This document shows positions 1,490-58,146 of a DNA stretch of 64,000 bases, piece by piece. The notes under the pieces were generated by a model, which worked only from the letters and a program-made list of their open reading frames with translations, ran no database searches and was not told the DNA's origin. Each line of letters starts with the position of its first letter. Position 1 is the stretch's first letter. Position numbers and translations under genes: made by a program. Source of the stretch: Alkalicoccus halolimnae (GTDB lineage Bacteria; Bacillota; Bacilli; Bacillales; Salisediminibacteriaceae); assembly GCF_008014775.2 (NCBI RefSeq), contig NZ_CP144914.1:1674001-1738000 (forward strand), written 5' to 3'.

Positions 1490-1935
1490 GAAAGCTCCTC
1501 CACGGCAGGCCTGCCGGGTTGAAGCGAAGTTTTCTTATATATCAACAACAGGCTTGGCTCTTACGCACGTTTGGTGAAAACAAAATATATCTGACAAAAA
1601 AACTAATTTAACCCTTAAACATTCTATCGTTTAAGCCTGGGCCGCCAGCTTTTTAAGTAGACTTATCTTCTGTCATCGTAAGCCGGAAAGACAAGTTCCC
1701 CTTTTTCGCGTAAGAACCACAGGCTTTAACAGAGCTTAAAGAATAAGTGTCACAATAATCAGTCTTTTTACCGTAAGCTGTAGTGGACATGGAACGAATC
1801 CGGGGCGGTCAAGGACAGGTCCCGCCCCGGACTACCGCAGTGAAGAAGGGATCAGCTGAGGCCGGCCCTGCGCACCCATGAAAACGAAAACGCACGTTCA
1901 TCGCTTATCTACTTTATTTTCAAGGCAGCCAATCA
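1490..1935 (+). repeat. Composite dispersed intergenic repeat, longest copy
   Basis: Three modules in a row recur elsewhere in the window. Module C (1490–1545) is a hairpin around CCACGGCAGGCCTGCC. Module B (1553–1760) contains TTACGCACGTTTGGTGAAAA and CTATCGTTTAAGCCTGGGCC. Module A (1765–1930) ends with AACGCACGTTCATCGC and TTTATTTTCAAGGCAGCC. Other copies lie at 3030, 8860, 15745, 17878, 27700, 36105, 46685, 48080 and 62732. No coding potential is evident. The copy lies between the IS110 tail and the SDR gene. Confidence 0.75.
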
Positions 1936-4695: not shown

Positions 4696-4729
4696 CTGCT
4701 CATGCCGTTCTCCGGCAGAGCAGTTTTTT
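4696..4729 (+). terminator. Rho-independent terminator after the methyltransferase gene
   Basis: CTGCTC…CGG / CCGG…GAGCAG stem followed by six T. It separates the methyltransferase from the carotenoid operon. Confidence 0.75.
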
Positions 4730-4740
4730 AAAAACCTATG

Positions 4741-4762
4741 ATGTACAAAGATTATACAAAAG
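4741..4762 (+). promoter_or_regulatory. Putative CarH/LitR operator: two tandem 11-bp repeats
   Basis: ATGTACAAAGA (4741–4751) and TTATACAAAAG (4752–4762) are exactly consecutive and both fit nTnnACAnnnn, the repeat bound by Thermus CarH. Both also contain T(G/A)TACA, the half-site described for LitR/PplR regulators. A third phase (4763–4773) matches poorly. The repeats abut the -35 of the sigma-B-type promoter at 4765. Binding by the CarH-like protein encoded at 57250 is inferred. Confidence 0.5.
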
Positions 4763-4764
4763 TT

Positions 4765-4790
4765 GTTTATACGTTTATATTTACGGGAAA
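4765..4790 (+). promoter_or_regulatory. Sigma-B-type promoter of the carotenoid operon
   Basis: GTTTAT (4765–4770), a 14-bp spacer, then GGGAAA (4785–4790). This fits the sigma-B pattern and recalls sigma-B control of S. aureus crtOPQMN. No convincing sigma-A promoter was seen in the same gap. Confidence 0.55.
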
Positions 4791-4829: not shown

Positions 4830-6320
4830 ATGACACAAGTGGCGATTATTGGTGCGGGTCCAGGTGGACTTGCTGCGGGGATGATACTGGCAGCAAATGG
4901 ATACGAGGTGGATATTTATGAGAAGCAGCAATACGTAGGTGGAAGAACTTCTTCTTTTACAAAAGGGGAATATACTTTCGACTTAGGACCGACATTTTTC
5001 AGTATGACGCATGTATTGGAAGAGATTTTCACGAAAAGTGGCAGAAATCTTCATGATTATGTAGAGTTAATTGAACTGGACCCGATGTACTCCCTCGTTT
5101 TTGATAACCTGACCATCAGGGCGAGCAGGAATGAAGAAAAAATGTTTGCGGAAATCGAAAAAAACTTTCCGGGAAACGGTCCTGCTTACAAAGAGTTTAT
5201 GAAGGATACAAGGAAAAAATTGGCTGCCTTATCGCCTATTCTTCAGGAAGAGCATGCCTCTTTATTTGATTACCTGCGTCTGAGAAGCATTAAAGCTCTT
5301 CCGCAGCTTGAAGTAGGTAAAACATTATATGATGTTCTTGCGAAATATTTCGATGATGAAAGGTTGATCCTTTCCTTTACTTTTCAATCTAAATATCTCG
5401 GGATGTCTCCATGGGAATGTCCGGGAGCGTTTAGCATATTATCATTTATGGAGCACGAATATGGAGTCTTTCATCCGCGCGGGGGATTAAATCAAATTAC
5501 AAAAGCAATGGCTGCAGTTGCCGAAGAACACGGGGCCCGAATTCATTTAGATTCGGGTGTTCAAAAAATTGATGTGCAGAATGGAAAAGCTGAGAGTCTG
5601 CTTCTTGAAAGCGGTGAAGTAATAAAGTCGGATCATATCGTCATGAATGCGGACTTTGCAAACAGTATGTCAACATTAATCGATGATAAATACAGAAAAA
5701 AATACTCGGACAAAAAACTTTCCAAAAAGAAATATTCATGTTCAACGTTTATGATATATGCCGGGGTTAACAAAAAAATTGATCTGGACCACCATACCGT
5801 TTTTTTCTCAGCGGATTATAAGAAAAATGTCGAAGAAATTACTAAACTGGGGAAGCTTTCCGATGATCCATCCATATATGTACACAATGCTTCAGTTACA
5901 GATAATACCCTGGCACCCGAAGGTAAATCTGCTCTTTATATCTTGGCTCCGGTGGCTAATAATTTCAGTGAAATTAACTGGGAAGAGAAGAAGCAGAAAT
6001 TTCGTGATTTAATTATGGAGGAAGTGGCCTCCAAGCTGGGTATGCCTGACCTGGAACAGCATATTGAAGTGGAGGAAATTCTCACTCCTTTTGATTGGGA
6101 GAAAGATAAACTTATTTATCAGGGAGCAACTTTTAATCTTGCTCATAACCTCGGACAAATGATGTATTTCCGTCCTCATAATCAATTTGATGATATTAAA
6201 GGGATTTGGCTTACCGGAGGCGGGACACACCCGGGAAGTGGTCTTCCCACGATCTTTGAATCAGCGAAAATTACTTCAAAACTTATTATGCAGTCCGATC
6301 GTAGGAAGGTGAATTCATGA
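4830..6320 (+). CDS. CrtI-type carotenoid desaturase/oxidase (second desaturase of the cluster)
   Basis: 496 residues, FAD-dependent phytoene-desaturase fold. The N-terminal dinucleotide motif is IIGAGPGGLAAGM, followed by YEKQQYVGGRTSSF. The C-terminal FAD motif LTGGGTHPGSGLPTIFESAK is of CrtI type rather than CrtN type. Such enzymes remove hydrogens stepwise from, or oxidise the end groups of, linear carotenoids at the membrane. Which step this paralog takes (further desaturation, or oxidation to aldehyde/acid as in CrtNc/CrtP-like enzymes) cannot be told. AAAGAGGTG precedes the ATG. The stop overlaps the next start (ATGA), so translation is coupled to crtN. Confidence 0.88.
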   Translation: MTQVAIIGAGPGGLAAGMILAANGYEVDIYEKQQYVGGRTSSFTKGEYTFDLGPTFFSMTHVLEEIFTKSGRNLHDYVELIELDPMYSLVFDNLTIRASRNEEKMFAEIEKNFPGNGPAYKEFMKDTRKKLAALSPILQEEHASLFDYLRLRSIKALPQLEVGKTLYDVLAKYFDDERLILSFTFQSKYLGMSPWECPGAFSILSFMEHEYGVFHPRGGLNQITKAMAAVAEEHGARIHLDSGVQKIDVQNGKAESLLLESGEVIKSDHIVMNADFANSMSTLIDDKYRKKYSDKKLSKKKYSCSTFMIYAGVNKKIDLDHHTVFFSADYKKNVEEITKLGKLSDDPSIYVHNASVTDNTLAPEGKSALYILAPVANNFSEINWEEKKQKFRDLIMEEVASKLGMPDLEQHIEVEEILTPFDWEKDKLIYQGATFNLAHNLGQMMYFRPHNQFDDIKGIWLTGGGTHPGSGLPTIFESAKITSKLIMQSDRRKVNS

Positions 6321-7777
6321 AAACGATAATCGTCGGAGCAGGAATAGGCGGAATGGTCACAGCGCTGTATGAACGTATGGCAGGTAATGAGGTTGTTATG
6401 TTTGAATCCAAAGCCAGACTCGGGGGGAGACTGGCTTATCACGAAAGAGGAGAATACCGGGTGGACGAAGGACCAACTGTAGTGCTTCTTCCGAATATGA
6501 TAAAAGAAATTCTGAATGAAATTGGACTGGCAGACAGGGTGGAATTTGTTCAGATAGATCCCTTATACCCTCTTCATTTTCCAGACGGATCCAACTTTCT
6601 CAAATGGAGTAATAAAGAGAACCAGAAAAAAGAAATTGAGAAACATTTCCCTGGAGAATCCGGGGGTTTTGACGAATATATGGACGATATGAAAGAGCGT
6701 TATTTTGATGGGAAAGCTTCTTTTCTCGATCATGCCTTTTTGCAGCGCCGTGCATTTTGGACGATAGGAAATATAAAAACGCTCATAAAACTGAAAGCTT
6801 ATCAATCTGTTCGAAAGCAGTCTAAAAAATATTTTAAATCTATCAGGCTCCAGGAAGCTTTCGCTCTGCAGACTTTATATATAGGAGGCTCCCCTGAACA
6901 GACTCCTGCCATTTATTCTCTCGTACCATTCAGTGAGCATGAACACGGCATCTGGTACATTAAAGGTGGTTATGCGAAACTTGCCGAAGTCCTTGCAGAA
7001 GCTCTCGAAGAAAGAGGAGTGGAAGTAAGAACTCATTCGAGCGTAAGTGAAATTGTTACTGAAGCCAATGAAGCGACCGGCTGCATTGTTAACGGAGAAG
7101 AGGTAAACGGGGACAGGATTGTTTTGAATGGAGAATTTCCAGCAGCTGAAAAATTAATGCCGGAAAATTCTAAAAAAACATACAAGCCGTCATCCGGCTG
7201 TCTTTTATTTTATTTTGGTCTTAACAAGCCGCTTAACACAGCTCATGTTCATAATTTCTACATTGGAGAAAGCCTTGACAAGCATATGAATGATTTGTTT
7301 GTGGAACATAAGTTATCTGACGATCCTGCCTTTTACGTTTTTAACCCTTCGCTAATCGATGAGACACTCGCACCTGAGGGCCACGGTGTAGCCTATGTCC
7401 TTGTCCCTGTACCTTCCGCTGACAAAATCAGCAGAAAAGAATATTTAACCTATGCCGAGAAAATAAAAAAATTGCTGATAGAAAGAACAGATGCCCAGCT
7501 CAATGAAAAAATTGAATGGGAGCATATTCGAACACCTCATGAAGCTAAATTGGATGGTTTATATCAAGGGGGGAGTTTCGGTATTGCTCCTACACTATTT
7601 CAATCAGGTGTATTCAGACCTCAAGTAAAACCATTCTCCTATAACAATGTTTATGCTGTGGGAGCATCTGTTCACCCGGGTGGCGGCATTCCAATCGTTA
7701 TGCATGGTGCAAAAGTCTTATCAAAAATTCTTCGAAGTGAGACTAAAGAGGAATTAATGGATATTAAAGAGAATTAA
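6317..7777 (+). CDS. crtN: Dehydrosqualene (4,4'-diapophytoene) desaturase CrtN
   Basis: 486 residues. FAD motif IVGAGIGGMVTALYE at the N-terminus; the central LQTLYIGGSPEQTPAIYSLV and C-terminal GASVHPGGGIPIVMHGAK are close to staphylococcal CrtN, from memory. It converts the C30 precursor 4,4'-diapophytoene to diaponeurosporene/diapolycopene at the membrane. It overlaps the upstream desaturase by 4 bp, and crtM follows after 92 bp. Of the three paralogous oxidoreductases in the cluster, this is the best match to CrtN itself. C30 rather than C40 substrate use is inferred from that likeness and from the crtM/crtP/crtQ company. Confidence 0.88.
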   Translation: MKTIIVGAGIGGMVTALYERMAGNEVVMFESKARLGGRLAYHERGEYRVDEGPTVVLLPNMIKEILNEIGLADRVEFVQIDPLYPLHFPDGSNFLKWSNKENQKKEIEKHFPGESGGFDEYMDDMKERYFDGKASFLDHAFLQRRAFWTIGNIKTLIKLKAYQSVRKQSKKYFKSIRLQEAFALQTLYIGGSPEQTPAIYSLVPFSEHEHGIWYIKGGYAKLAEVLAEALEERGVEVRTHSSVSEIVTEANEATGCIVNGEEVNGDRIVLNGEFPAAEKLMPENSKKTYKPSSGCLLFYFGLNKPLNTAHVHNFYIGESLDKHMNDLFVEHKLSDDPAFYVFNPSLIDETLAPEGHGVAYVLVPVPSADKISRKEYLTYAEKIKKLLIERTDAQLNEKIEWEHIRTPHEAKLDGLYQGGSFGIAPTLFQSGVFRPQVKPFSYNNVYAVGASVHPGGGIPIVMHGAKVLSKILRSETKEELMDIKEN

Positions 7778-7869: not shown

Positions 7870-8712
7870 ATGCAGGTTCAAGAAGCATACGATCATTGCC
7901 GGCTTATAATTGAGCAGCACTCCCTTACTTTCGCCAAGGCATTTAAGCATCTTCCCAGGAAAAAGCGTCAGGCTGTCTGGGCAGTATACGCTTTCTGCAG
8001 GACAGCTGATGATATCGTTGATGAGGGTGTAGAAAAAGAACGGGAACTGAAAAGATTTAAAAAGGATCTGGATAGGTTTGCTGATGGTGATACTCCGCTT
8101 CACGATCCGCTTTGGACAGCCCTGGAAGATGCTTTTAGACATTTTTCTTTTGACATTCAGCCTTTTTACGACATGATAAAAGGACAGGAAATGGATTTGT
8201 ATGGTTATAATTACCGGTCTTTTAATGAGGTATTAAACTATTCTTATCATGTAGCGAGTACAGTAGGGTTAATGCTGCTTCCTATTCTTGCTCCAGACGC
8301 AAAGGAAGAACTGAAATTGAGTGCTGTTAAGCTGGGATATGCTATGCAGATTACAAATATACTCAGGGATATAGGAGAAGATATGGACCGAGACAGAAAG
8401 TATATTCCTGATGAACTAATGAAAAAATATGGTTACACTCAAGCAATGCTCGAACGCAGGGAAGTAAATCAAGGATTTATTTCTATTTGGGAAGAAATGG
8501 CTCAGAGTGCAGAGAAATATTACGAAGAAGGTTTAGAGCTCACGAACTTATACCCGGTTCATTCAAGACTGCCTGTGCAAGCAGCAGCCCTTTTGTATAA
8601 AAGAATCCTTCATTCTGCCAGAAGAAATGAATATGATGTTTTTAAGCGCCGAGCTGTCGTGTCGCAGGAGGAAAAGTCAGTAATATTAAACGAACTGGCT
8701 TCTATAAAATAA
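7870..8712 (+). CDS. crtM: Dehydrosqualene synthase / phytoene synthase family (CrtM)
   Basis: 280 residues, trans-isoprenyl diphosphate head-to-head synthase. The first Asp-rich motif is FCRTADDIVDE (~44–54). The second Asp-rich region is NILRDIGEDMDRDRKYIP with the family signature. It condenses two farnesyl diphosphates to 4,4'-diapophytoene, the first committed step of the pathway. GGAGAGGAG lies upstream of the ATG. It is last in the plus-strand operon, with a strong terminator starting at its stop codon. Confidence 0.92.
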   Translation: MQVQEAYDHCRLIIEQHSLTFAKAFKHLPRKKRQAVWAVYAFCRTADDIVDEGVEKERELKRFKKDLDRFADGDTPLHDPLWTALEDAFRHFSFDIQPFYDMIKGQEMDLYGYNYRSFNEVLNYSYHVASTVGLMLLPILAPDAKEELKLSAVKLGYAMQITNILRDIGEDMDRDRKYIPDELMKKYGYTQAMLERREVNQGFISIWEEMAQSAEKYYEEGLELTNLYPVHSRLPVQAAALLYKRILHSARRNEYDVFKRRAVVSQEEKSVILNELASIK

Positions 8713-9115: not shown

Positions 9116-10585
9116 TTACCTGTGCTCTTTATAAATAAGATCTGCAACGTTCATCCCACTCAAGGTTACCATCGGAGAACCTCCGCCGGGATGTGTGCTT
9201 CCTCCTGTGAAGTATAAATTCGAAAAATCTACCGCTTTGTTATAAGGTCTCAAAAATGTATTTTTGCGTTTATTGGATGATATCCCATACAACGCTCCAC
9301 GGTAAGCATAAAATTTATTCTTAATATCAGCCGGCGTTACCGTTTTGGAATCAATAATTGAGGGAGCGATATCCAACCCATGGGATTTCATTTTTTTTAA
9401 TACAAATTCCTGAGAGATTGATTCTTGATTACCACTTTTTGAAAGAGGAGGGGCATTAATCAGGAAAAACATATTATCTCCCCGTGGTGACATAGCTGGT
9501 TCTGTCTTTGAGGAAGTACAAATATAAATAGTTGGATCTATTCCATAGGATTCTTCCTGGAAAATAGATCGAAATTCTGCTCCTGGATTTTCACTAAAAA
9601 AAACGTGATGATGATTTAAATCGAATTTCCGGTCAGATGCAGCCAGAAGCACGTAAGCAGAAATAGAGGGATCGGCGGCCGCAGCTTTTTTATTTGTAAA
9701 AGAAGGTCGATTTTTCTCATCTACCAACCGGGGAAACTGTGTTAATAAATCCCCGTTCAAAACAACAGCGTCAGCCTGAAGCGAGTTGTCATTGTCTATC
9801 ACAACCTCTTTTATTTTTCCATCGGCTCCCTCCAGAGAAGTTACTTCTCTGCCTTTCATGATCTCTACACCTATTAGTTCAGCTGCCCGTTCCATACCTT
9901 CTGCAATTTTATAGTTTCCTCCCATTGTGTAATAAACCCCATCTCCGAGTTCCAGGTGTCCAATTAGTCCAAAAGTTGCTGGCGAGTAATAAGGGGAAGA
10001 GCCGATATAAGTAGCGTATCGGTTAAAGGCAGCCAGGATTCGTTCATCTTTAAAAAAACGCCTGTGAAAGTGGTCGAGATTCTCTAGCGGTCTGGTAGTC
10101 ATTAAAGCTTTCATTAATGGCAGCGACAGATAGTCTTTCCAGCTTTTGAAAGTACGTCTTAGAAAATGATTTTCAGCTGTGTGAAAAAGCCGGGATGTCT
10201 CATTCAAATAAGCTTCATAGTTATCTGCTGAACGGGGGTCGATCTGCAGCAGTTCTTCCTTCATCTTTTCTTTATTCGATGAAAAGGTAAAGGAAGAATG
10301 ATCATAAAAACTATTGGTAGTATGATCTGTTAATTTAATAAAGTTAAAAAAGTCCTCCGGGTTCTGGCCGGACCTTTTTATAACTTCATTAAAAACACCT
10401 GGCATTGTAATGGTATTTGGACCGAAATCAAAACGGGAACTGCCTAATGAAACTTCGTGCAGCTTCCCGCCTATATGATTATTTTTTTCAATTAATACGG
10501 CTTGAAACCCTGAGGACTGCAGGGAAATTGCAGCACTGATCCCTCCAAGGCCTCCACCTATTATAACTACCCGTTTTTTATTCAT
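9116..10585 (-). CDS. crtP: Diaponeurosporene/diapolycopene oxygenase, CrtP (CrtNb) type
   Basis: 489 residues from the ATG at 10585. IIGGGLGGISAA starts the FAD domain; YRGALYGISSNK and LYFTGGSTHPGGGSPMVTLS near the C-terminus resemble S. aureus CrtP. It oxidises the terminal methyl of the C30 carotenoid towards aldehyde/acid. A longer frame extends upstream, but the ATG used here follows GGAAAGGA and overlaps the crtQ stop as ATGA. It is the last gene of the minus-strand operon CruF-like–acyltransferase–crtQ–crtP. No clear terminator was seen before the repeat at 9045. Confidence 0.9.
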   Translation of the reverse strand: MNKKRVVIIGGGLGGISAAISLQSSGFQAVLIEKNNHIGGKLHEVSLGSSRFDFGPNTITMPGVFNEVIKRSGQNPEDFFNFIKLTDHTTNSFYDHSSFTFSSNKEKMKEELLQIDPRSADNYEAYLNETSRLFHTAENHFLRRTFKSWKDYLSLPLMKALMTTRPLENLDHFHRRFFKDERILAAFNRYATYIGSSPYYSPATFGLIGHLELGDGVYYTMGGNYKIAEGMERAAELIGVEIMKGREVTSLEGADGKIKEVVIDNDNSLQADAVVLNGDLLTQFPRLVDEKNRPSFTNKKAAAADPSISAYVLLAASDRKFDLNHHHVFFSENPGAEFRSIFQEESYGIDPTIYICTSSKTEPAMSPRGDNMFFLINAPPLSKSGNQESISQEFVLKKMKSHGLDIAPSIIDSKTVTPADIKNKFYAYRGALYGISSNKRKNTFLRPYNKAVDFSNLYFTGGSTHPGGGSPMVTLSGMNVADLIYKEHR

Positions 10586-11679
10586 TGGTAATTGCGTCCT
10601 TTCCATGTGAATCCACGTTTTGAAAAGCCGAGAAAAGCTGAATAAGCTAATATAGTAAACATCATTACAATCGATAAAGGAAATAATATAAAAAGCCACG
10701 GTTTTTGACGTGTGAATAAATCCACAGCCAATTTAATGGATAATGTGAGCAGAAGCGGAAGAAAATAAAGTAACTCACCCGTATAAATACCTAAGAAAGC
10801 AATTGGAACCGGTAAAAGAAACAACAGACTATAAAAAATTATAATAGCTGTCATAATTGTTATGCTTCGTCCAAGGCCAGGAAAGAAATTTTTGGAAAAA
10901 CCTTCCCAGACTTCTTTGTTTGTCTCGTACATAAAACATTGAACCGTATTAGTGTTATTTACCAGGCGAACGTTCCAGCCAGTACGTTTCATGATTTTTG
11001 CTATGTGTATATCCTCTACCAGGGAAGCTTTAACTGAGTAGTGACCGTTTATTTCATCGTACGCTTTTTTTCTGAACATCATGTAGGCTCCGTGTGCAGC
11101 CGTTGATTTATCCCATAGAGTGTGGTTGGCGAGAAGCACAGGAAGATGAAAGAAAACTAGAAAATGCTGCATTGGTACGAGGAGATGTCCGAGCAGGCTT
11201 TTTAATGGAATCTGAGGGAACCCGGTAACAAGCCCCGTTTTTTCTGTAAAGGCGTGCAATGATCTGTCTATTATATTGGGGTGTACCCGAACATCAGCAT
11301 CCAAAAAAAGTAAAAAATCTCCTTTGGCCTGCTTGGAAAGCTGGTAGCAGGCATGAACTTTCCCAACCCATCCTTTAGGAAGATCTTCACCTTCCAATAA
11401 ATGGATCCTTTGGTCTTTTGACGATGCTTCCACTAGTTTTTCGGCAGTCTGATCTGTAGATCCATCATCTAAAATGAGAATTTCCAGCTCACGATAAGTA
11501 ATATGCCCCAGCGAATCGAGCAGCGGTTTCACGTTAGCTTCTTCATTTCGCATTGGAATAAGAATGGAAACAGAAGGGGTAAAGGATGATTGTCTTTTAT
11601 CACGAAGCAGAGGCATCAAAGATCCGTTAATGATCGTAAGCAGGAGCATGATAAATAAGAAAATGATATATGCTGTCAC
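10582..11679 (-). CDS. crtQ: Carotenoid glycosyltransferase, GT2 family (CrtQ-like)
   Basis: About 365 residues. A hydrophobic N-terminal anchor is followed by a GT-A domain: SILIPMRNEEANV, ILDDGSTDQTAE, the metal-binding LFLDADVRV, and VEDIHIAK as acceptor/catalytic Asp region. Two or three C-terminal membrane segments follow. It should transfer a sugar to the carotenoid carboxylate at the inner face of the membrane. The GTG at 11679 follows GGGGG and overlaps the upstream stop (GTGA); another GTG at 11715 lacks a good ribosome site. The order crtQ–crtP with an acyltransferase matches staphyloxanthin-type clusters. Confidence 0.87.
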   Translation of the reverse strand: MTAYIIFLFIMLLLTIINGSLMPLLRDKRQSSFTPSVSILIPMRNEEANVKPLLDSLGHITYRELEILILDDGSTDQTAEKLVEASSKDQRIHLLEGEDLPKGWVGKVHACYQLSKQAKGDFLLFLDADVRVHPNIIDRSLHAFTEKTGLVTGFPQIPLKSLLGHLLVPMQHFLVFFHLPVLLANHTLWDKSTAAHGAYMMFRKKAYDEINGHYSVKASLVEDIHIAKIMKRTGWNVRLVNNTNTVQCFMYETNKEVWEGFSKNFFPGLGRSITIMTAIIIFYSLLFLLPVPIAFLGIYTGELLYFLPLLLTLSIKLAVDLFTRQKPWLFILFPLSIVMMFTILAYSAFLGFSKRGFTWKGRNYQ

Positions 11680-12392
11680 TCGATAACCCCCAAAAAACGT
11701 TTCGTATTTTCCCACCTTTGAGCAAAGCCTTTCTTCCCATAAAGCAGAGGAATAAATGAAGAATCGTTTAAAACAGTCCGTTTTAACATTTCGAGCTCTA
11801 TTGTCAGCATTTTTTCAGCTTCGTCAGTCCATCTTTTTCGATTCCATGAGGGTGCACCCTTGATCGGAGAAGCAGAATGGACGAACCATTCGGGGCGCTG
11901 CTTATGAAAAAGGCCGTGGTAAAATACGACCGGAATTAAAGGAGCTGCGGGTACCCGCCATTTCAGGTAGCCGGCACCCCCGAAAAAAGAAAGAGGTCTT
12001 TTTTCAAGAGGATATTCATTCCCCTGTGGAAATAGAAAAACATTTTTCCCCTCTCTCAGCTGGGAAGAAGCATAATCCAGAGCGTATTTAACGGAGCGTG
12101 GGGAACGGCTGTTTACGGAAAAAGCCCCCAGTTTGTTAAAAAAAGGAAATCTCTGCAGTCCGGCCTCATCCATCATAGCGACGGCATCTGTATGCCAAAG
12201 AGTGTGATTTAAATAAAACAGCATAAGAGGGTCCCACCAGGAACTGTGATTCACCAAAATTATGGCACCTCTTTGAGGGGGTGGAACGGAATTTTTTGAT
12301 TGATAAAGGCCGTGAAAGTTTTTAGAGATTAACTGCCGGTTATACAGATGAAACATTTTCTCGAAATGCAGGTTATTCGCTGCTTTAATCAT
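11676..12392 (-). CDS. PlsC-type acyltransferase, probable carotenoid-glycoside acyltransferase
   Basis: 238 residues. The HX4D catalytic motif NHSSWWDP sits at ~48–55, and FPQGNEYPLEKR matches the second motif (EGTR position) of the 1-acylglycerol-phosphate acyltransferase family. In S. aureus the final acylation is done by CrtO, an unrelated membrane protein. Here the position between the CruF-like gene and crtQ makes this a likely functional equivalent that esterifies the sugar with a fatty acid. ATGA overlap with the upstream gene and GTGA overlap with crtQ show tight coupling. Confidence 0.83.
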   Translation of the reverse strand: MIKAANNLHFEKMFHLYNRQLISKNFHGLYQSKNSVPPPQRGAIILVNHSSWWDPLMLFYLNHTLWHTDAVAMMDEAGLQRFPFFNKLGAFSVNSRSPRSVKYALDYASSQLREGKNVFLFPQGNEYPLEKRPLSFFGGAGYLKWRVPAAPLIPVVFYHGLFHKQRPEWFVHSASPIKGAPSWNRKRWTDEAEKMLTIELEMLKRTVLNDSSFIPLLYGKKGFAQRWENTKRFLGVIE

Positions 12393-13174
12393 AGATCAGC
12401 CCTTCTATTGAAAAAGATATAAAGTACATAATAAGCAGAGGCGGTCAGTAAGGACACGAGAGGAGCAAGAATCATTCCGTTAACTAAGGCTACAATGACA
12501 AACATAAAAGCCATCATCCCGTAAAGATACAACATTCGTTTGTGCCAGAAATGCCTGTTCGTTCCTTTCCATTTTCCGTTTCTTAATAAAACAGTAGAGA
12601 GTATGAAGTGTAGTATGAAAGAGAGGATGAACCATCCGAGAAAATTACTGAAAGGGATGTTGTAATAAAAGCCCCCGGTTTCCCAAACCCAGTACTGCTT
12701 AACTTCAAATGCAACAGGATCAATAATTAAATCCAGCGAAGTTCCAATAAAAGCTCCGTAAACAGAGTAGATAATTCTACGGAACCTTTTAAAAATATTC
12801 ACGACAGGAGCAGCCAGCACGTGGGAAGTTGCGATGACCATAGTCCAGGCAAATCCTATCGTTAACGGTACACCGGCTACTTTCGGACCGAAGTCTGCCT
12901 GATAGCTGTAATCGCCAAAAAATAATCCTGTATGTACTCCGAAACTCTCGATTGCCATAGACATTATGAAAATGGTACCGATGAGAAACAAGCCGGTTAA
13001 AGCAGGAGAATTTCTGTAGAAATAAAACATTCCCAGTAAGCCGGATGTCATTAAGAAAACAACGTTAGCCCATTCGAGCCAGGAGGGGACAAGGTCGAAA
13101 GATAATAAAAAAAGCCCAATAACGTACCAGATAATGAAAAAACGGTATAAATAATAATCAAGTTTCAGTGGCAT
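12389..13174 (-). CDS. Carotenoid biosynthesis membrane protein, CruF/DUF422 family
   Basis: 261 residues with about seven membrane helices. The family signature is present: HTGLFFGDYSY, GVPLTIGFAW, and DLIIDPVAFEVKQYWVW followed by YYNIPFSNFLGW. CruF proteins add water across the terminal C1,2 double bond of linear carotenoids. First gene of the minus-strand operon; ATG preceded by AAAGGATGAG. S. aureus has no such gene in its cluster, so the end product here may differ from staphyloxanthin. Hydratase activity on a C30 substrate is inference. Confidence 0.83.
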   Translation of the reverse strand: MPLKLDYYLYRFFIIWYVIGLFLLSFDLVPSWLEWANVVFLMTSGLLGMFYFYRNSPALTGLFLIGTIFIMSMAIESFGVHTGLFFGDYSYQADFGPKVAGVPLTIGFAWTMVIATSHVLAAPVVNIFKRFRRIIYSVYGAFIGTSLDLIIDPVAFEVKQYWVWETGGFYYNIPFSNFLGWFILSFILHFILSTVLLRNGKWKGTNRHFWHKRMLYLYGMMAFMFVIVALVNGMILAPLVSLLTASAYYVLYIFFNRRADL

Positions 13175-25927: not shown

Positions 25928-26105
25928 GAAAATGCAGATAGAGGTGCAGAGCATATTAGTAATATATGGGAGCGGGTGGCCCGCGATGATCATGTAGGAA
26001 AGGGTGTTCTGCCGAAGAATCTTTACGGCCTTGCGTATAGATTCTGGGAATCCGCTGAACAAGCGGGTTACTGTCACAGTTCAGCTGTGGAGCACTATCT
26101 TTTTT
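25928..26105 (+). ncRNA. Lysine riboswitch (L-box)
   Basis: The conserved L-box blocks occur in order: AGAGGTGC (25940–25947), GAAAGGGTG…GCCGAAG (~25997–26018), TTCTGGGAATCC, ACTGTCAC, and GTGGAGCACTATC (26087–26099). When lysine binds, the downstream terminator should form and lysA transcription stop. The region is by chance also open in frame with lysA, but translation does not start here. Confidence 0.9.
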
Positions 26106-28566: not shown

Positions 28567-28606
28567 TAAGTATGCTAAGAACAGGATCTTACAATATAAT
28601 AATAAT

Positions 28607-28752
28607 TCCTTCGGGGTCGGGTGAAAGTCCCAACCGGCGGTGATAAGGTTTGCAGCCTTTCAGTCCGTGACCCGTGTGGTGATTAACAACAGCTCACGGT
28701 GGATTTGGTGGAAATCCAAAGCCGACAGTAAAGTCTGGATGGGAGAAGGAAC
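28607..28752 (+). ncRNA. FMN riboswitch (RFN element)
   Basis: All RFN hallmarks are present: CTTCGGGGTCGGGTGAAAGT, CCAACCGGCGGTGAT, AGTCCGTGACCCG, GGTGGATTTGGTGGAAATCC, AAGCCGACAGT, and GGATGGGAGAAGGAACG. It turns off the ribD-ribE-ribBA-ribH operon when FMN is plentiful. Confidence 0.96.
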
Positions 28753-28835
28753 GTTTAGCGGAGTAAATTGCAGGGGATAAGTTTATCCTCGTTTCTGTTT
28801 GTTCACTAAACTTTACGCAGATATTCTGCACGTAT

Positions 28836-43411: not shown

Positions 43412-43450
43412 AAAAAGGCTGTCCGTTGTTTTCAATTGGACAGCCTTTTA
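43412..43450 (+). terminator. Terminator between resABC and resDE
   Basis: AAAAGGCTGTCC … GGACAGCCTTTT stem-loop; it ends 16 bp before the resD start, so it may attenuate read-through. Confidence 0.8.
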
Positions 43451-43465
43451 CATGGAGGGATAAGG

Positions 43466-44194
43466 ATGACCGATACGGAACAACAGACAAGGGTATTAAT
43501 AGTTGACGATGAAGAACGTATCCGCAGACTTCTCAGGATGTATTTGGAAAAAGAAAATTATATCGTTGAAGATGCCGAAAATGGAGAAGCAGCGCTGGAT
43601 ATGGCGATTAGTACAGACTATGATTTAATCGTTCTCGATCTGATGATGCCTGGTATTGATGGCATACAAGTATGTGAAGAAATTCGAAAACATAAAGCTA
43701 CTCCTATCATCATGCTCACCGCAAAAGGAGAAGAAATAAACCGAGTGCAGGGCTTCGAGGCAGGAACAGACGATTACATTGTAAAACCATTCAGCCCAAG
43801 AGAAGTTGTTTTAAGGGTTAAGGCTCTGCTGAGAAGATCGTCCTCTACAAAATTTCTGCAGACAGAAACGAAAACAAAAGAAATATTTGAATTCTCTCAT
43901 TTAACAATTGACGATGATGCTCATAGAGTCACAGTCCAAAATAAATTAATAAACTTAACTCCAAAAGAATATGAGCTTCTTCTTTATCTGGCACAGGCTC
44001 CGGATAAAGTGTTTGCTAGAGAGCAGCTTTTGAAAGATGTTTGGAATTATGAATTTTTTGGCGATCTGCGTACTGTGGATACCCATATTAAACGCCTTAG
44101 GGAGAAACTGAGTCATATTGAACCGAAAGCGGCAGACATGATTAAAACTGTCTGGGGTGTTGGTTATAAGTTTGAGGACGCTGAACAGGGATGA
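43466..44194 (+). CDS. resD: Response regulator ResD
   Basis: 242 residues, OmpR/PhoB family. Receiver: VDDEERIRRL, phospho-Asp in LIVLDLMMPG, Thr in LTAKGEE and Lys in YIVKPFSPRE. C-terminal winged helix with LTPKEYELLLYL and RTVDTHIKRLREKL. Controls aerobic and anaerobic respiration genes, including res. ATG follows GGAGGGA. Overlaps resE. Confidence 0.95.
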   Translation: MTDTEQQTRVLIVDDEERIRRLLRMYLEKENYIVEDAENGEAALDMAISTDYDLIVLDLMMPGIDGIQVCEEIRKHKATPIIMLTAKGEEINRVQGFEAGTDDYIVKPFSPREVVLRVKALLRRSSSTKFLQTETKTKEIFEFSHLTIDDDAHRVTVQNKLINLTPKEYELLLYLAQAPDKVFAREQLLKDVWNYEFFGDLRTVDTHIKRLREKLSHIEPKAADMIKTVWGVGYKFEDAEQG

Positions 44195-45960
44195 TGTTCT
44201 GGAGAAGCGTCGTAGGGAAAATCTGGTTTACAATACTACTGCTCGTATCTGTAGTACTGCTTGTATTGACTATTCTGCTTCTTGAGTATTTTGAGCGGTT
44301 TCATGCAGAGCAGGCGGAGGGAGAACTATTAAATCATGCCAATCTCATCGTCAGCTTTCTGGAGTACGAAACAACAGACGGTGAGGCTCTGGATATGAGT
44401 CAGGTTATTTCCGAGTCATACTCTGCACGGGCACTGCTCATCGGGGAAGAAGGGTACTGGTACACCTCTGACGAAGATGAGCAGGAAATCCCGGTAGAAG
44501 TTTTTTATGAACATGATGATTTAGCAAATGTTATGGAGAACGAAGAAACGGTAGTGACCCGGGGAGATTATTCTGTTACAAGAACACAGGGAGAAAATGC
44601 AGAAATTATGATTGTTGGAATGCCGGTAGTATTCGAAGATGGGGAAGAAGGATCCCTGTTTCTTTATCAGTCTCTGGACGTAATAGAAGAAGCGACAAAT
44701 CAGACAAAACAGATTATATTTTTTTCCGCCGGTATAGCGATTATTCTGACTACCGTTTTTGCTTTTTTCCTGACTTCAAGAATAACAGCCCCACTGAGGC
44801 AGATGAGGGCGGCTTCTCTCGAAGTTGCAAAAGGAAATTTTGATACAAAAATACCTATTCAGACTAAAGATGAAATCGGCCTGCTTGCTATGGCTTTCAA
44901 TCGGATGGGACGGGCTTTAAATACCAATTTACATGCGTTGAATCAGGAAAAAGAACAGCTTTCCCATATTTTGAGTTCTATGGCTGACGGAGTTATGACA
45001 TTCAATAAGACAGGGCGTGTCGTAGTAACCAATCCACCTGCTGTAGAATTTATTAATTCATGGAGGTATGAAGAACAGCTGGAGGAAAACAGCGAACCTC
45101 CTCACCTGAATGTTTTATTCCAGAAGGTTCTGAAGCTGGAAGAAGAAGTAGTGGATGAAGTGACGATTCAAGGCAGAACCTGGGTTATATTAATGACACC
45201 TCTTTACGATCAGAATGATATAAGAGGAGCAGTTGCAGTTCTAAGGGATATGACGGAAGAAAGACAGCATGATAAGCTTCGCAAAGACTTTATTGCCAAC
45301 GTTTCTCATGAACTGCGTACCCCTATATCCATGCTCCAGGGATATGGAGAAGCTATAGTGGATGGAATAGCGGAGACAGAAGAAGAGAAAAAAGAAATGG
45401 CACAGATTATCTACGATGAATCATTGAGAATCGGAAGGCTTGTAAATGAACTGCTGGACCTTGCACGCATGGAAGCGGGCCATCTTACATTAGCTAAAGA
45501 AGAAATTCATATTAAAACGATGCAGGAAAAAATCTTAAGAAAATTTCAAGTTATAGCTAAAGAGCAGAATGTCCGACTTATAGGAGAAAATTTGACCCGA
45601 ACTGAATATTTTATTGGTGATCCGGATAGACTCGAACAAGTTATGACTAATTTAATTGATAATGCCTTCAGGCACACCCCTGAAAAAGGAACGATAACTG
45701 TGCGCATGAAAGAAGAAGATAATGGATTGAAAATGGAGGTGGAGGATACTGGAACCGGCATTCCCGAGGAAGACCTTCCATTTGTCTTTGAACGTTTTTA
45801 CAAAGCAGATAAAGCGAGAACTCGCGGAAGGGCAGGTACTGGCCTGGGACTCGCCATTGTACAGAATATCGTCGACGCCCATGGCGGAAAAGTGTCCGTT
45901 CATAGTAAAGTAGGCGAAGGAACGAGCTTTAATGTTTTTCTTCCGATTACCAGAGATTAA
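44191..45960 (+). CDS. resE: Sensor histidine kinase ResE
   Basis: 589 residues. Two membrane helices flank an acidic outer domain (~30–165); then HAMP (~190–245), PAS (~250–355), HisKA with phospho-His in FIANVSHELRTP (~370), and HATPase with NLIDNAFRH, DTGTGIP and GTGLGLAI. Senses redox/oxygen state through an unknown signal. Coupled to resD by ATGATG overlap. Confidence 0.95.
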   Translation: MMFWRSVVGKIWFTILLLVSVVLLVLTILLLEYFERFHAEQAEGELLNHANLIVSFLEYETTDGEALDMSQVISESYSARALLIGEEGYWYTSDEDEQEIPVEVFYEHDDLANVMENEETVVTRGDYSVTRTQGENAEIMIVGMPVVFEDGEEGSLFLYQSLDVIEEATNQTKQIIFFSAGIAIILTTVFAFFLTSRITAPLRQMRAASLEVAKGNFDTKIPIQTKDEIGLLAMAFNRMGRALNTNLHALNQEKEQLSHILSSMADGVMTFNKTGRVVVTNPPAVEFINSWRYEEQLEENSEPPHLNVLFQKVLKLEEEVVDEVTIQGRTWVILMTPLYDQNDIRGAVAVLRDMTEERQHDKLRKDFIANVSHELRTPISMLQGYGEAIVDGIAETEEEKKEMAQIIYDESLRIGRLVNELLDLARMEAGHLTLAKEEIHIKTMQEKILRKFQVIAKEQNVRLIGENLTRTEYFIGDPDRLEQVMTNLIDNAFRHTPEKGTITVRMKEEDNGLKMEVEDTGTGIPEEDLPFVFERFYKADKARTRGRAGTGLGLAIVQNIVDAHGGKVSVHSKVGEGTSFNVFLPITRD

Positions 45961-46030
45961 ATATACAAAAGAAGGTTTCTTATAAGTGTATAAAGCATGA
46001 TTATCATTTACGAATATGAAGGAGGACAAT

Positions 46031-46588
46031 ATGAAAATTTACACAAAAAAAGGCGATAAAGGACAGACACAGCTTATTGGTAAGAGAGTGGAAAAGACAA
46101 ATGAGCGTGTAGAAGCTTATGGTACGGTTGATGAACTTAACAGTTTTATAGGGGTGGCAGTATCCCTGATGAAAAAAACAAATTTTACCGACATTCAAAC
46201 TGAATTATTGACTATCCAGCACGAGCTGTTTGATTTAGGCGGAGATCTGGCAAATGTTACAGAGAATAAAGAGTGGACGTTAAAAGAAGCTTCGATTACG
46301 AGGCTTGAAAACAAGATAGATGAATATTGGGAAGAGGCTCCACCTTTGAAGAAATTTATTCTTCCCGGTGGAGAGCCCGCGGCTTCCTATTTACATGTCT
46401 GCAGAACCGTTGCCAGAAGGGCAGAAAGATTGACGAGCGCCATTCATGACGAACATGATATGCCCCCGGCTGCACTTCCGTATTTAAACCGTCTGTCAGA
46501 CTTCTTCTTTGCAGCTTCAAGAGCGGTTAATCACCGATCCGGGACAGAGGATATCTTGTATGAAAGAGGGAAAGATGTTTTTAATTAG
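46031..46588 (+). CDS. PduO-type ATP:cob(I)alamin adenosyltransferase
   Basis: 185 residues. N-terminal KIYTKKGDKGQT, YGTVDELNSFIG, and RTVARRAERL with PYLNRLSDFFFAASR near the end: the ATP- and corrinoid-binding segments of the family. It makes adenosylcobalamin (coenzyme B12). ATG 46031 follows AAGGAGG. In B. subtilis sigX-rsiX follow resE; here this gene does. No B12-dependent enzyme is encoded nearby, but a CarH-like adenosylcobalamin photoreceptor is at 57250. Confidence 0.94.
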   Translation: MKIYTKKGDKGQTQLIGKRVEKTNERVEAYGTVDELNSFIGVAVSLMKKTNFTDIQTELLTIQHELFDLGGDLANVTENKEWTLKEASITRLENKIDEYWEEAPPLKKFILPGGEPAASYLHVCRTVARRAERLTSAIHDEHDMPPAALPYLNRLSDFFFAASRAVNHRSGTEDILYERGKDVFN

Positions 46589-57249: not shown

Positions 57250-58146
57250 ATGGCAGAGCAGCAGGGGAAATATAATATTAAAGCAGTATCTAATTTATTA
57301 GGGATTCATGCAGGAACATTGAGGGCTTGGGAGAGACGGTACAAGATTATAGAACCCATCCGAAACGAGGCAGGCCACAGGCTTTATAGTGATGAACATA
57401 TTCGTATACTAAAGTGGATAGTTAACAAAGTAGATAATGGTTTTACGATTGGACAGGCTGTAGATCTTTTAAACAAACAGGAAGAGCCGGCCTTTATTGA
57501 TCATGATCCACGTTTTACGAATCAAATGGACGTTTTAAAAGAGCAGATAATGCATGAACTTCTCCATTTCCAGGAAAATAAAGCCAACGAATTAATTGAC
57601 CGTGCTTTTGGGCTGTTTTCCACCGATAAAGTACTAATTCATATTATGGGAGGAATTCTGCAGGAAGTAGGCATGAAATGGGAAAGAAGGGAGATATTTA
57701 CTGCTCATGAACATTTTGTTACCTCGCTTCTAAGGACAAGGATAGGAATGGTATTTCATTCCCTGCCTATAAATGGCTTTCTACCTAAAGCAGTTTGTGT
57801 TTGCGGCCCGCAGGACCAGCATGAATTAGGTTTGTTGATTTTTACTTATTATTTAAAGCAGCGGGGATACGAAACCGTTTATCTGGGTGCTGGAATTCCG
57901 GCAGAAGATGTTGAGCAGGTAGTTAAGGAAGTGGATGCCAAACTGGTAGTTGTGTCTACTACGCTGCCGGATCATTTATCAAAAGCTTTAAATCTGGCAG
58001 AAAACCTCCACGAAACCTTTCAGGATATAAAGGTTGGACTTGGAGGACATGCACTGAAAAATTTAAATGTCTTTGAAAAGAATAAATATAAAGATTTGTT
58101 AATAGGTAATAATGAAAATGAATGGAACACCTGGTTAAAGAAATGA
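57250..58146 (+). CDS. CarH/LitR-like MerR regulator with B12-binding photoreceptor domain
   Basis: 298 residues. MerR DNA-binding head YNIKAVSNLLGIHAGTLRAW with RNEAGHRLYSDEHI (~10–60). A four-helix B12 cap holds W144-x9-E154-H155, the motif that shields the upper axial adenosyl group in CarH. A Rossmann B12 domain has D189-x-H191-x-x-G194, with His as lower ligand, and LGGHALKN. Known members bind DNA as adenosylcobalamin tetramers in the dark and fall apart in light, derepressing carotenoid genes. ATG 57250 follows AGGTGA. Likely targets are the repeats at 4741. Confidence 0.88.
   Translation: MAEQQGKYNIKAVSNLLGIHAGTLRAWERRYKIIEPIRNEAGHRLYSDEHIRILKWIVNKVDNGFTIGQAVDLLNKQEEPAFIDHDPRFTNQMDVLKEQIMHELLHFQENKANELIDRAFGLFSTDKVLIHIMGGILQEVGMKWERREIFTAHEHFVTSLLRTRIGMVFHSLPINGFLPKAVCVCGPQDQHELGLLIFTYYLKQRGYETVYLGAGIPAEDVEQVVKEVDAKLVVVSTTLPDHLSKALNLAENLHETFQDIKVGLGGHALKNLNVFEKNKYKDLLIGNNENEWNTWLKK

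Follow-up and report, generated by a model that had tools for sequence, protein, structure and literature searches.

What controls the carotenoid genes of Alkalicoccus halolimnae, and does light enter into it? The stretch of DNA analysed here (the window, 64,000 nucleotides) carries a carotenoid operon and, some 50 kb away, a gene for a MerR-type regulator with B12-binding domains (Table 1). In the systems already described, CarH bound to adenosylcobalamin (AdoCbl) occupies tandem nnnnTnnACAn repeats over the -35 or -10 element of a promoter and leaves upon photolysis (excerpts of PMC8156234 and PMC9304148). Our comparison of sequences suggests that the host probably keeps its carotenoid genes shut in the dark via a B12 light sensor. 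More specifically, we propose, with a probability of roughly two in three, that a CarH/LitR-type AdoCbl light repressor blocks a sigma-B-type promoter of crtN, and that pigment would need both light and general stress.

Table 1. Features of the window, with the DUF4397 locus (L031, own coordinates)
Feature	Position	Strand	Basis or remark
Likely terminator, CTGCTC...GAGCAG with T6 after it, of the methyltransferase gene upstream	4696..4729	+	Read from sequence
Candidate CarH operator, units at exact 11-bp steps	4739..4771	+	Comparative array; sequence only
Operator units TGTACA, TATACA, TGTTTA	4742-4747, 4753-4758, 4764-4769	+	Matrix and relatives
Sigma-B-type -35 box GTTTAT, inside third operator unit	4765..4770	+	Family arrays, consensus
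Sigma-B-type -10 box GGGAAA, 14 nt past -35	4785..4790	+	Sequence
crtN-like desaturase, first gene of the operon	4830..6320	+	Pfam Amino_oxidase
Second CrtN-like FAD oxidoreductase, overlaps first gene	6317..7777	+	Pfam Amino_oxidase
crtM-like squalene/phytoene synthase, committing step	7870..8712	+	Pfam SQS_PSY, E 9e-72
Second carotenoid set: CrtN-like oxidase, glycosyltransferase, acyltransferase, Caroten_synth	9116-13174	-	Domain matches
Lysine and FMN riboswitches	25931-26105 and 28603-28754		Above gathering score; only riboswitches in window
PduO-type cobalamin adenosyltransferase	46031..46588	+	PF01923, E 2e-60
carH/litR-like gene	57250..58146	+	298 aa; Pfam, structural matches, predicted fold
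MerR DNA-binding head, then four-helix and Rossmann B12-binding domains	57250..58146	+	Pfam order
DUF4397 gene (L031); its array	650-1480; 1501-1549	-	Refined pair pattern, more than one pair

The regulator and its ligand residues

The open reading frame of the regulator starts with an ATG at 57250, and a GTG 12 bases upstream is a possible alternative start. Its product matches MerR_1, B12-binding_2 and B12-binding (Pfam), each above the cut-off; the head is PF13411 (E 9e-16), and the B12 domains PF02607 and PF02310 stand in the CarH/LitR order. The nearest solved structures are those of Thermus CarH/LitR (3whp/5c8d, E 5e-28), and a Foldseek search with the predicted fold (mean pLDDT 85, model built from 34 sequences) placed TtCarH/LitR chains at all of ranks 1-39, with a best E of 1e-16 and 25-30% identity. 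The genome, a single contig of 3.69 Mb, holds one full-length match to the protein; apart from it, only the head of a 253-aa MerR-like frame gave a hit (E 9e-4). Domains, residues and TtCarH as top structural match thus bear out the initial annotation, which had called this gene a CarH-like regulator.

The protein shares with CarH of Thermus thermophilus (5c8d, 5c8e, 5c8f) the domain order, the fold, the W-x9-EH motif and the lower histidine ligand. The two motifs read from it initially, W144-x9-EH155 and D189-x-H-x-x-G, were found where they had been placed (W144, E154, H155, D189, H191, G194), and W131, E141, H142 and H177 of TtCarH have their counterparts in W144, E154, H155 and H191. RAWERRY at residues 25-31 fits the RxWERRY recognition helix and is the same in all 34 sequences of our alignment, which we chose among the matches listed (120 of 1060) and to which the alignment counts below also refer.

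Two positions differ from Thermus CarH, which has His132 and GxxH where the Alkalicoccus protein has Glu145 and QxxH. Of the four motifs described as a light signature, GxxW, EH, GxxH and GxxxP (PMC11796333, excerpts), three are kept and GxxH reads Q188xxH191; among the matches that we picked, glycine stands at the position of Gln188 in 7 of 34, and the proline of GxxxP is kept in 26 of 34, our protein included. Glu145 takes the place of His132, which serves in Thermus as the upper ligand in light, so that this Thermus feature is absent. Glutamate is found there in 34/34 of the aligned proteins picked from the matches listed, in 29 of 30 carH genes of relatives (own included) and in 19 of 20 further genes. 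Glu145, Gln188 and the excerpted report that TtCarH H132A stays mostly tetrameric in light, notwithstanding an earlier report of disassembly that it also cites (PMC10442372), would suit a protein that binds B12 without being a light switch and senses AdoCbl as a metabolite, or another signal, with the array mediating that response. We consider this improbable: GxxW, EH, GxxxP and H191 are retained, B12 proteins have been described that respond to light and carry Arg, Gln or Tyr where TtCarH has His132 (excerpts of PMC11796333), and the related CarH/LitR of Bacillus megaterium responds to light (excerpts of PMC8156234). The His132 upper ligand is not universal according to the excerpts of PMC9304148 and PMC11796333, and because published light-responsive proteins carry other residues there, it was not taken as defining. 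In view of Glu145 and QxxH, we placed CarH membership on the head, the remaining ligand residues, the fold and the operator; a light response of the protein is likely.

The lower ligand histidine is replaced by asparagine, and the tryptophan is lost, in three CarH orthologues (G015, G016 and G030; loci L054, L057 and L058). EH is lost in G016 and G030 and retained in G015; a search of G015 for crtN gave nothing at E <= 1e-120, and the other two have crtN without the array described below. These proteins are perhaps B12-blind relatives.

The repeat array and its distribution among relatives

The operon is preceded by a likely terminator, which leaves crtN with a promoter of its own; a simple terminator scan reported nothing at 4696..4729. 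Since the operon includes crtM, the committing step, control at this promoter would gate the whole pathway. As the initial annotation had claimed, two tandem 11-bp repeats (TGTACAAAGATTATACA at 4742-4758, of the form TGTACA-N5-TATACA) stand before the operon, and a third unit, TGTTTA, which that two-repeat reading lacked, follows one step further on.

In number, the strict pattern TnnACA-N5-TnnACA does not stand out from chance: the window has a single copy where 1.98 would be expected, and the genome has 116, compared with 102 in a reversed control. By itself the strict two-unit pattern is not significant and has the random frequency that the initial annotation had named as refuting its proposal, and relatives were compared for this reason. 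A refined pair pattern gave 19 genomic matches (15 distinct positions) against 15 in the control, counts that by themselves prove nothing; only two loci in the genome have more than one refined pair, crtN and the DUF4397 site considered below.

For the comparison, an 11-bp matrix was built from 253 units in 93 genomes outside the host's family, which also includes Salipaludibacillus and Evansella species (the Alkalicoccus/Salipaludibacillus family). It reads roughly TTTGTATAAnT, its score is summed over three 11-bp steps, and an array was called at a score >= 0; we relied on this rule because a shuffle test at 40 shuffles per sequence was also passed by 14 of 30 carH upstream regions. Applied to the whole window, this other-family matrix gave scores >= 0 at 3 of 127,936 positions (both strands), all of them at 4729-4772, and at crtN the minus strand outscores the plus strand (23.0 vs 16.5). 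The same matrix marks 19 of the 25 crtN promoters of the Alkalicoccus/Salipaludibacillus family, as against 20 of 5000 shuffles, the array-negative promoters being those of G002, G006, G016, G026, G030 and G033.

The order sample comprised 299 genomes, scored at crtN E <= 1e-150 and carH E <= 1e-30 for the top-ranking 5 or 7 candidates in each genome. Matches to crtN were found in 137 of them, own included; both genes occur in 124 genomes, crtN alone in 13, carH alone in 72 and neither in 90. Upstream regions of crtN were collected from 150 genomes, 30 from loci and 120 by coordinates from the order sample, not counting the orthologue of G047, the crtN of G011 with its broken frame, and the second of the G034 copies. 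With units written as T[GA]TA[CT]A or TGTTTA, the carH-positive regions hold 173 unit pairs at spacing 11 and 0-14 at each of spacings 6-10 and 12-21, with further peaks at 22 (68 pairs) and, faintly, at 33 (13). At least one 11-bp pair precedes crtN in 108 of 137 carH-positive and 2 of 13 carH-negative genomes (Fisher 8e-6), whereas dinucleotide shuffles of the carH-positive set average 0.3 of 137, with a maximum of 2. This count needs no training, its unit pattern having been chosen after the promoters were viewed; by the matrix, which was partly trained on the same promoters, the figures are 118/137 and 2/13. The 13 carH-negative genomes fall in six families, which makes their effective number smaller than 13, and the Fisher values overstate independence because the genomes are related.

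The co-occurrence of carH with crtN and the distribution of the arrays support the earlier view that a CarH-type protein and the 11-bp operator belong together. That the repeats arise by chance, or are the site of another regulator, we regard as very improbable: the chance-level counts of the strict pattern, in the genome as in the window, and the arrays of G081 and G205, which have no carH at E <= 1e-30, would fit such an origin, but the peak at 11 bp and the association with carH argue against it, as does one lineage in which the array is missing together with carH or its ligand residues. In that lineage G026 has neither carH nor array, and the array is likewise absent from G016 and G030, where Asn replaces His191 of CarH and W and EH are lost; the three belong to one genus, have similar upstream sequences and were counted as one event. 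The converse, a strict coupling of the array to an intact CarH, was weakened by the 19 of 137 carH-positive genomes that have no array by the matrix. CarH was checked in ten of these, and two proteins lack B12 residues while eight have them all: G002, G006 and G033 (the last with Val at 145), and five more from other families.

The distance of about 50 kb between regulator and target, noted initially as an oddity, is nothing of the kind, being 45-79 kb in the 17 genomes of the family in which a single contig carries carH and a full-length crtN. It reflects conserved gene order and not the linkage of a circuit; in G011, where the crtN frame is broken, carH and crtN are 2.3 Mb apart. We also considered autoregulation of carH and rejected it for this genome, as its own upstream region scores -10.2 and has no usable array. 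Among the 30 carH upstream regions, six score >= 0: G023 (30.2), G009 (16.0), G019 (15.0), G032 (5.8), G036 (4.2) and G044 (0.7). The arrays upstream of carH at L044/G023, L042/G009, L041/G019 and L039/G032, which are Salipaludibacillus genomes, suggest autoregulation there.

A putative sigma-B-type promoter inside the array

The sigma-B motif of B. subtilis is given as GTTTAA-N15(+/-2)-GGGTAT, a spacer of 14 being apparently optimal (PMC9847131, excerpts). The sequence at crtN, GTTTAT-N14-GGGAAA, agrees with this consensus at five of six positions in the -35 box and four of six in the -10 box, with a spacer of 14. Most members of the Alkalicoccus/Salipaludibacillus family likewise have T-GTTTA as the last unit, followed by GGGWA 14 nt past GTTTAN, an observation made on a hand-chosen display of 19 of the 25 family promoters. 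Counted over arrays scoring >= 0, GTTTA within the array with GGGWA at N12-15 occurs in 14 of 19 from this family and in none of 101 from elsewhere (Fisher 2e-14). When spacers of 3-39 are allowed, the family has 16 placements, 13 of them at N14, while elsewhere there are none. When the array is ignored, 15 of 25 family upstream regions reach a sigma-B-like score >= 11, compared with a mean of 0.13 of 25 after mononucleotide shuffling; outside the family the figures are 7 of 125 and 0.47. The host has sigB (G000:C1:864450, TIGR02941 above the cut-off, E 8e-118). In G004, of the same genus, the array is present and the -10 box is absent.

The alternative to be weighed here is a conventional CarH switch at a sigma-A promoter, of the type described for B. 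megaterium and Thermus, with the sigma-B-like boxes coincidental or secondary. A weak sigma-A-like pair, TATACA-N17-TATATT (9/12), does overlap the array; sigma-A polymerase is what CarH blocks in the excerpts of PMC8156234, and the arrays of other families are devoid of the sigma-B signature. The position and fixed spacing of the two boxes in the family arrays and the excess of sigma-B-like scores over shuffles speak against such a switch, and we hold it to be unlikely.

The crtN upstream regions of G283, G303, G219, G241 and G082 have sigma-B-like elements without the 11-bp array, and the best match to CarH that these genomes offer is a remote one (E 1e-52 to 1e-65). In such genomes crtN may be under sigma-B without CarH.

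The gene with its domains and ligand residues, the conserved array and its co-occurrence with carH, the promoter-like elements at a fixed position in the array and the presence of sigB are what we observe; DNA binding, dark repression, photolysis and sigma-B dependence are what we infer from them. Counting against the proposal are the higher score of the minus strand at the array, the 72 genomes with carH and no crtN, the four-of-six match of the -10 box and its absence from G004. In the dark, AdoCbl-bound CarH would sit on the 11-bp array before crtN, and since the -35 box lies inside the third repeat, the bound repressor would cover it and block RNA polymerase carrying sigma-B. Light would break the Co-C bond and CarH would leave the DNA, upon which crtN-crtN2-crtM would be transcribed, given active sigma-B.

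Such an arrangement has both precedents and points of difference. The MerR-B12 protein CarH/LitR of B. megaterium (Takano 2015; Fernandez-Zapata 2018; both via excerpts of PMC8156234 and PMC9304148) is likewise a carotenoid repressor, and its operator, over -35 or -10, is a tandem row of 11-bp TnnACA repeats, either four or three plus a degenerate one; the Alkalicoccus units read TRTAYA/TGTTTA instead of four full TnnACA, and the last of them holds a sigma-B-type -35 box, whereas the excerpts describe sigma-A polymerase. The Thermus operator also has three tandem repeats, one of which includes the -35 element (PMC9304148, excerpts), so that a repeat bearing the -35 box is already known; the excerpts of PMC8156234 and PMC9304148 describe it at Thermus and Myxococcus promoters, with sigma-A polymerase. 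B. subtilis and Listeria also couple light to the general-stress regulon, by activating sigma-B itself (PMC3019169, excerpts), whereas the B12 repressor of Alkalicoccus would act at single promoters. Among the papers listed, titles, term counts and abstract beginnings yielded no description of a sigma-B promoter with a CarH operator, which the two B. megaterium papers could mention in their full text, and the best literature matches on pigment or light included no paper on the genus Alkalicoccus. The conserved CarH switch would be of a known kind, and it is the promoter arrangement of one family, as read from its sequences and well supported by its position and conservation, that we did not find in print.

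The C30 carotenoid genes of the staphyloxanthin operon of Staphylococcus aureus are under sigma-B, as proposed here for Alkalicoccus. We know of no B12 light repressor at the staphyloxanthin operon; in Alkalicoccus, by contrast, light and sigma-B seem to converge on a single element.

Further targets, cofactor supply and implications

The second locus with more than one refined pair lies before a DUF4397 gene (PF14344, E 1e-54), whose array (G000:C1:739327-739375) lies 20 bp ahead of it. In gene orientation the units are TATACA, TGTACA, AGTACA, TGTACA and TGTACA, at steps of 11, 11, 10 and 11. The predicted product has an N-terminal helix, a beta-rich body, an MPATG stretch and a C-terminal helix (model mean pLDDT 72). 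Among orthologues of at least 69% identity, the matrix trained on crtN promoters gives 10 of 15 family members a score >= 0 (37 of 3000 shuffles), and it gives none of seven distant homologues (<50% identity) such a score. A perfect GTTTM-N12-16-NGGTAW occurs in 11 of 23 orthologues of at least 50% identity (shuffled mean 0.18), a consensus that was picked after the sequences were seen. This cell-surface gene is a good lead for a second CarH target, with a sigma-B-like promoter predicted in many relatives. The upstream stretch of the opposite-strand carotenoid set at 9116-13174, on the other hand, contains no 11-bp array by matrix scan, and the later pigment steps may therefore escape light gating.

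Cofactor supply appears to be a general matter. The initial annotation had made the adenosyltransferase the third part of a dedicated circuit. The enzyme is indeed there (its longest open reading frame begins at 46016, the domain scan having been run from 46031), but PF01923 occurs in 60 of 60 genomes searched (our own and 59 relatives), single copy in 55, and also in family genomes that have no carH (G020, G025, G026, G027) and in the B. subtilis control. Its presence thus belongs to general B12 metabolism and is uninformative on the circuit: the enzyme supplies AdoCbl generally, unspecific to the carotenoid genes. Of the three-part circuit first proposed, the regulator and the operator at the carotenoid operon stand, and the adenosyltransferase drops out; the third repeat, the sigma-B-type promoter inside it, the second candidate target and Glu145 are additions to that first reading. 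The gene follows a ResD/ResE-like pair (43436-45960), a place that sigX usually takes. No cobalamin riboswitch was found in the 64-kb window at gathering score.

A wider proposal joins these observations: a B12 photoreceptor would belong to the general-stress regulon of Alkalicoccus/Salipaludibacillus, with letters shared between operator and sigma-B promoter imposing a requirement for light and stress together, with a similar pairing of operator and promoter at the DUF4397 gene, and with release from DNA by a route other than the Thermus bis-His state, Glu145 standing in that place. We judge the chances of this whole to be evenly balanced. If the operator is indeed fused to a sigma-B promoter, a general-stress promoter would carry a light veto of its own and link photoprotection to stress with no extra regulator, and pigment is predicted to require both inputs. 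Such an element would be a compact natural AND gate and could offer green-light control in Gram-positive hosts, and the clade would allow the part played by the light-state ligand to be tested in comparison with Thermus CarH.
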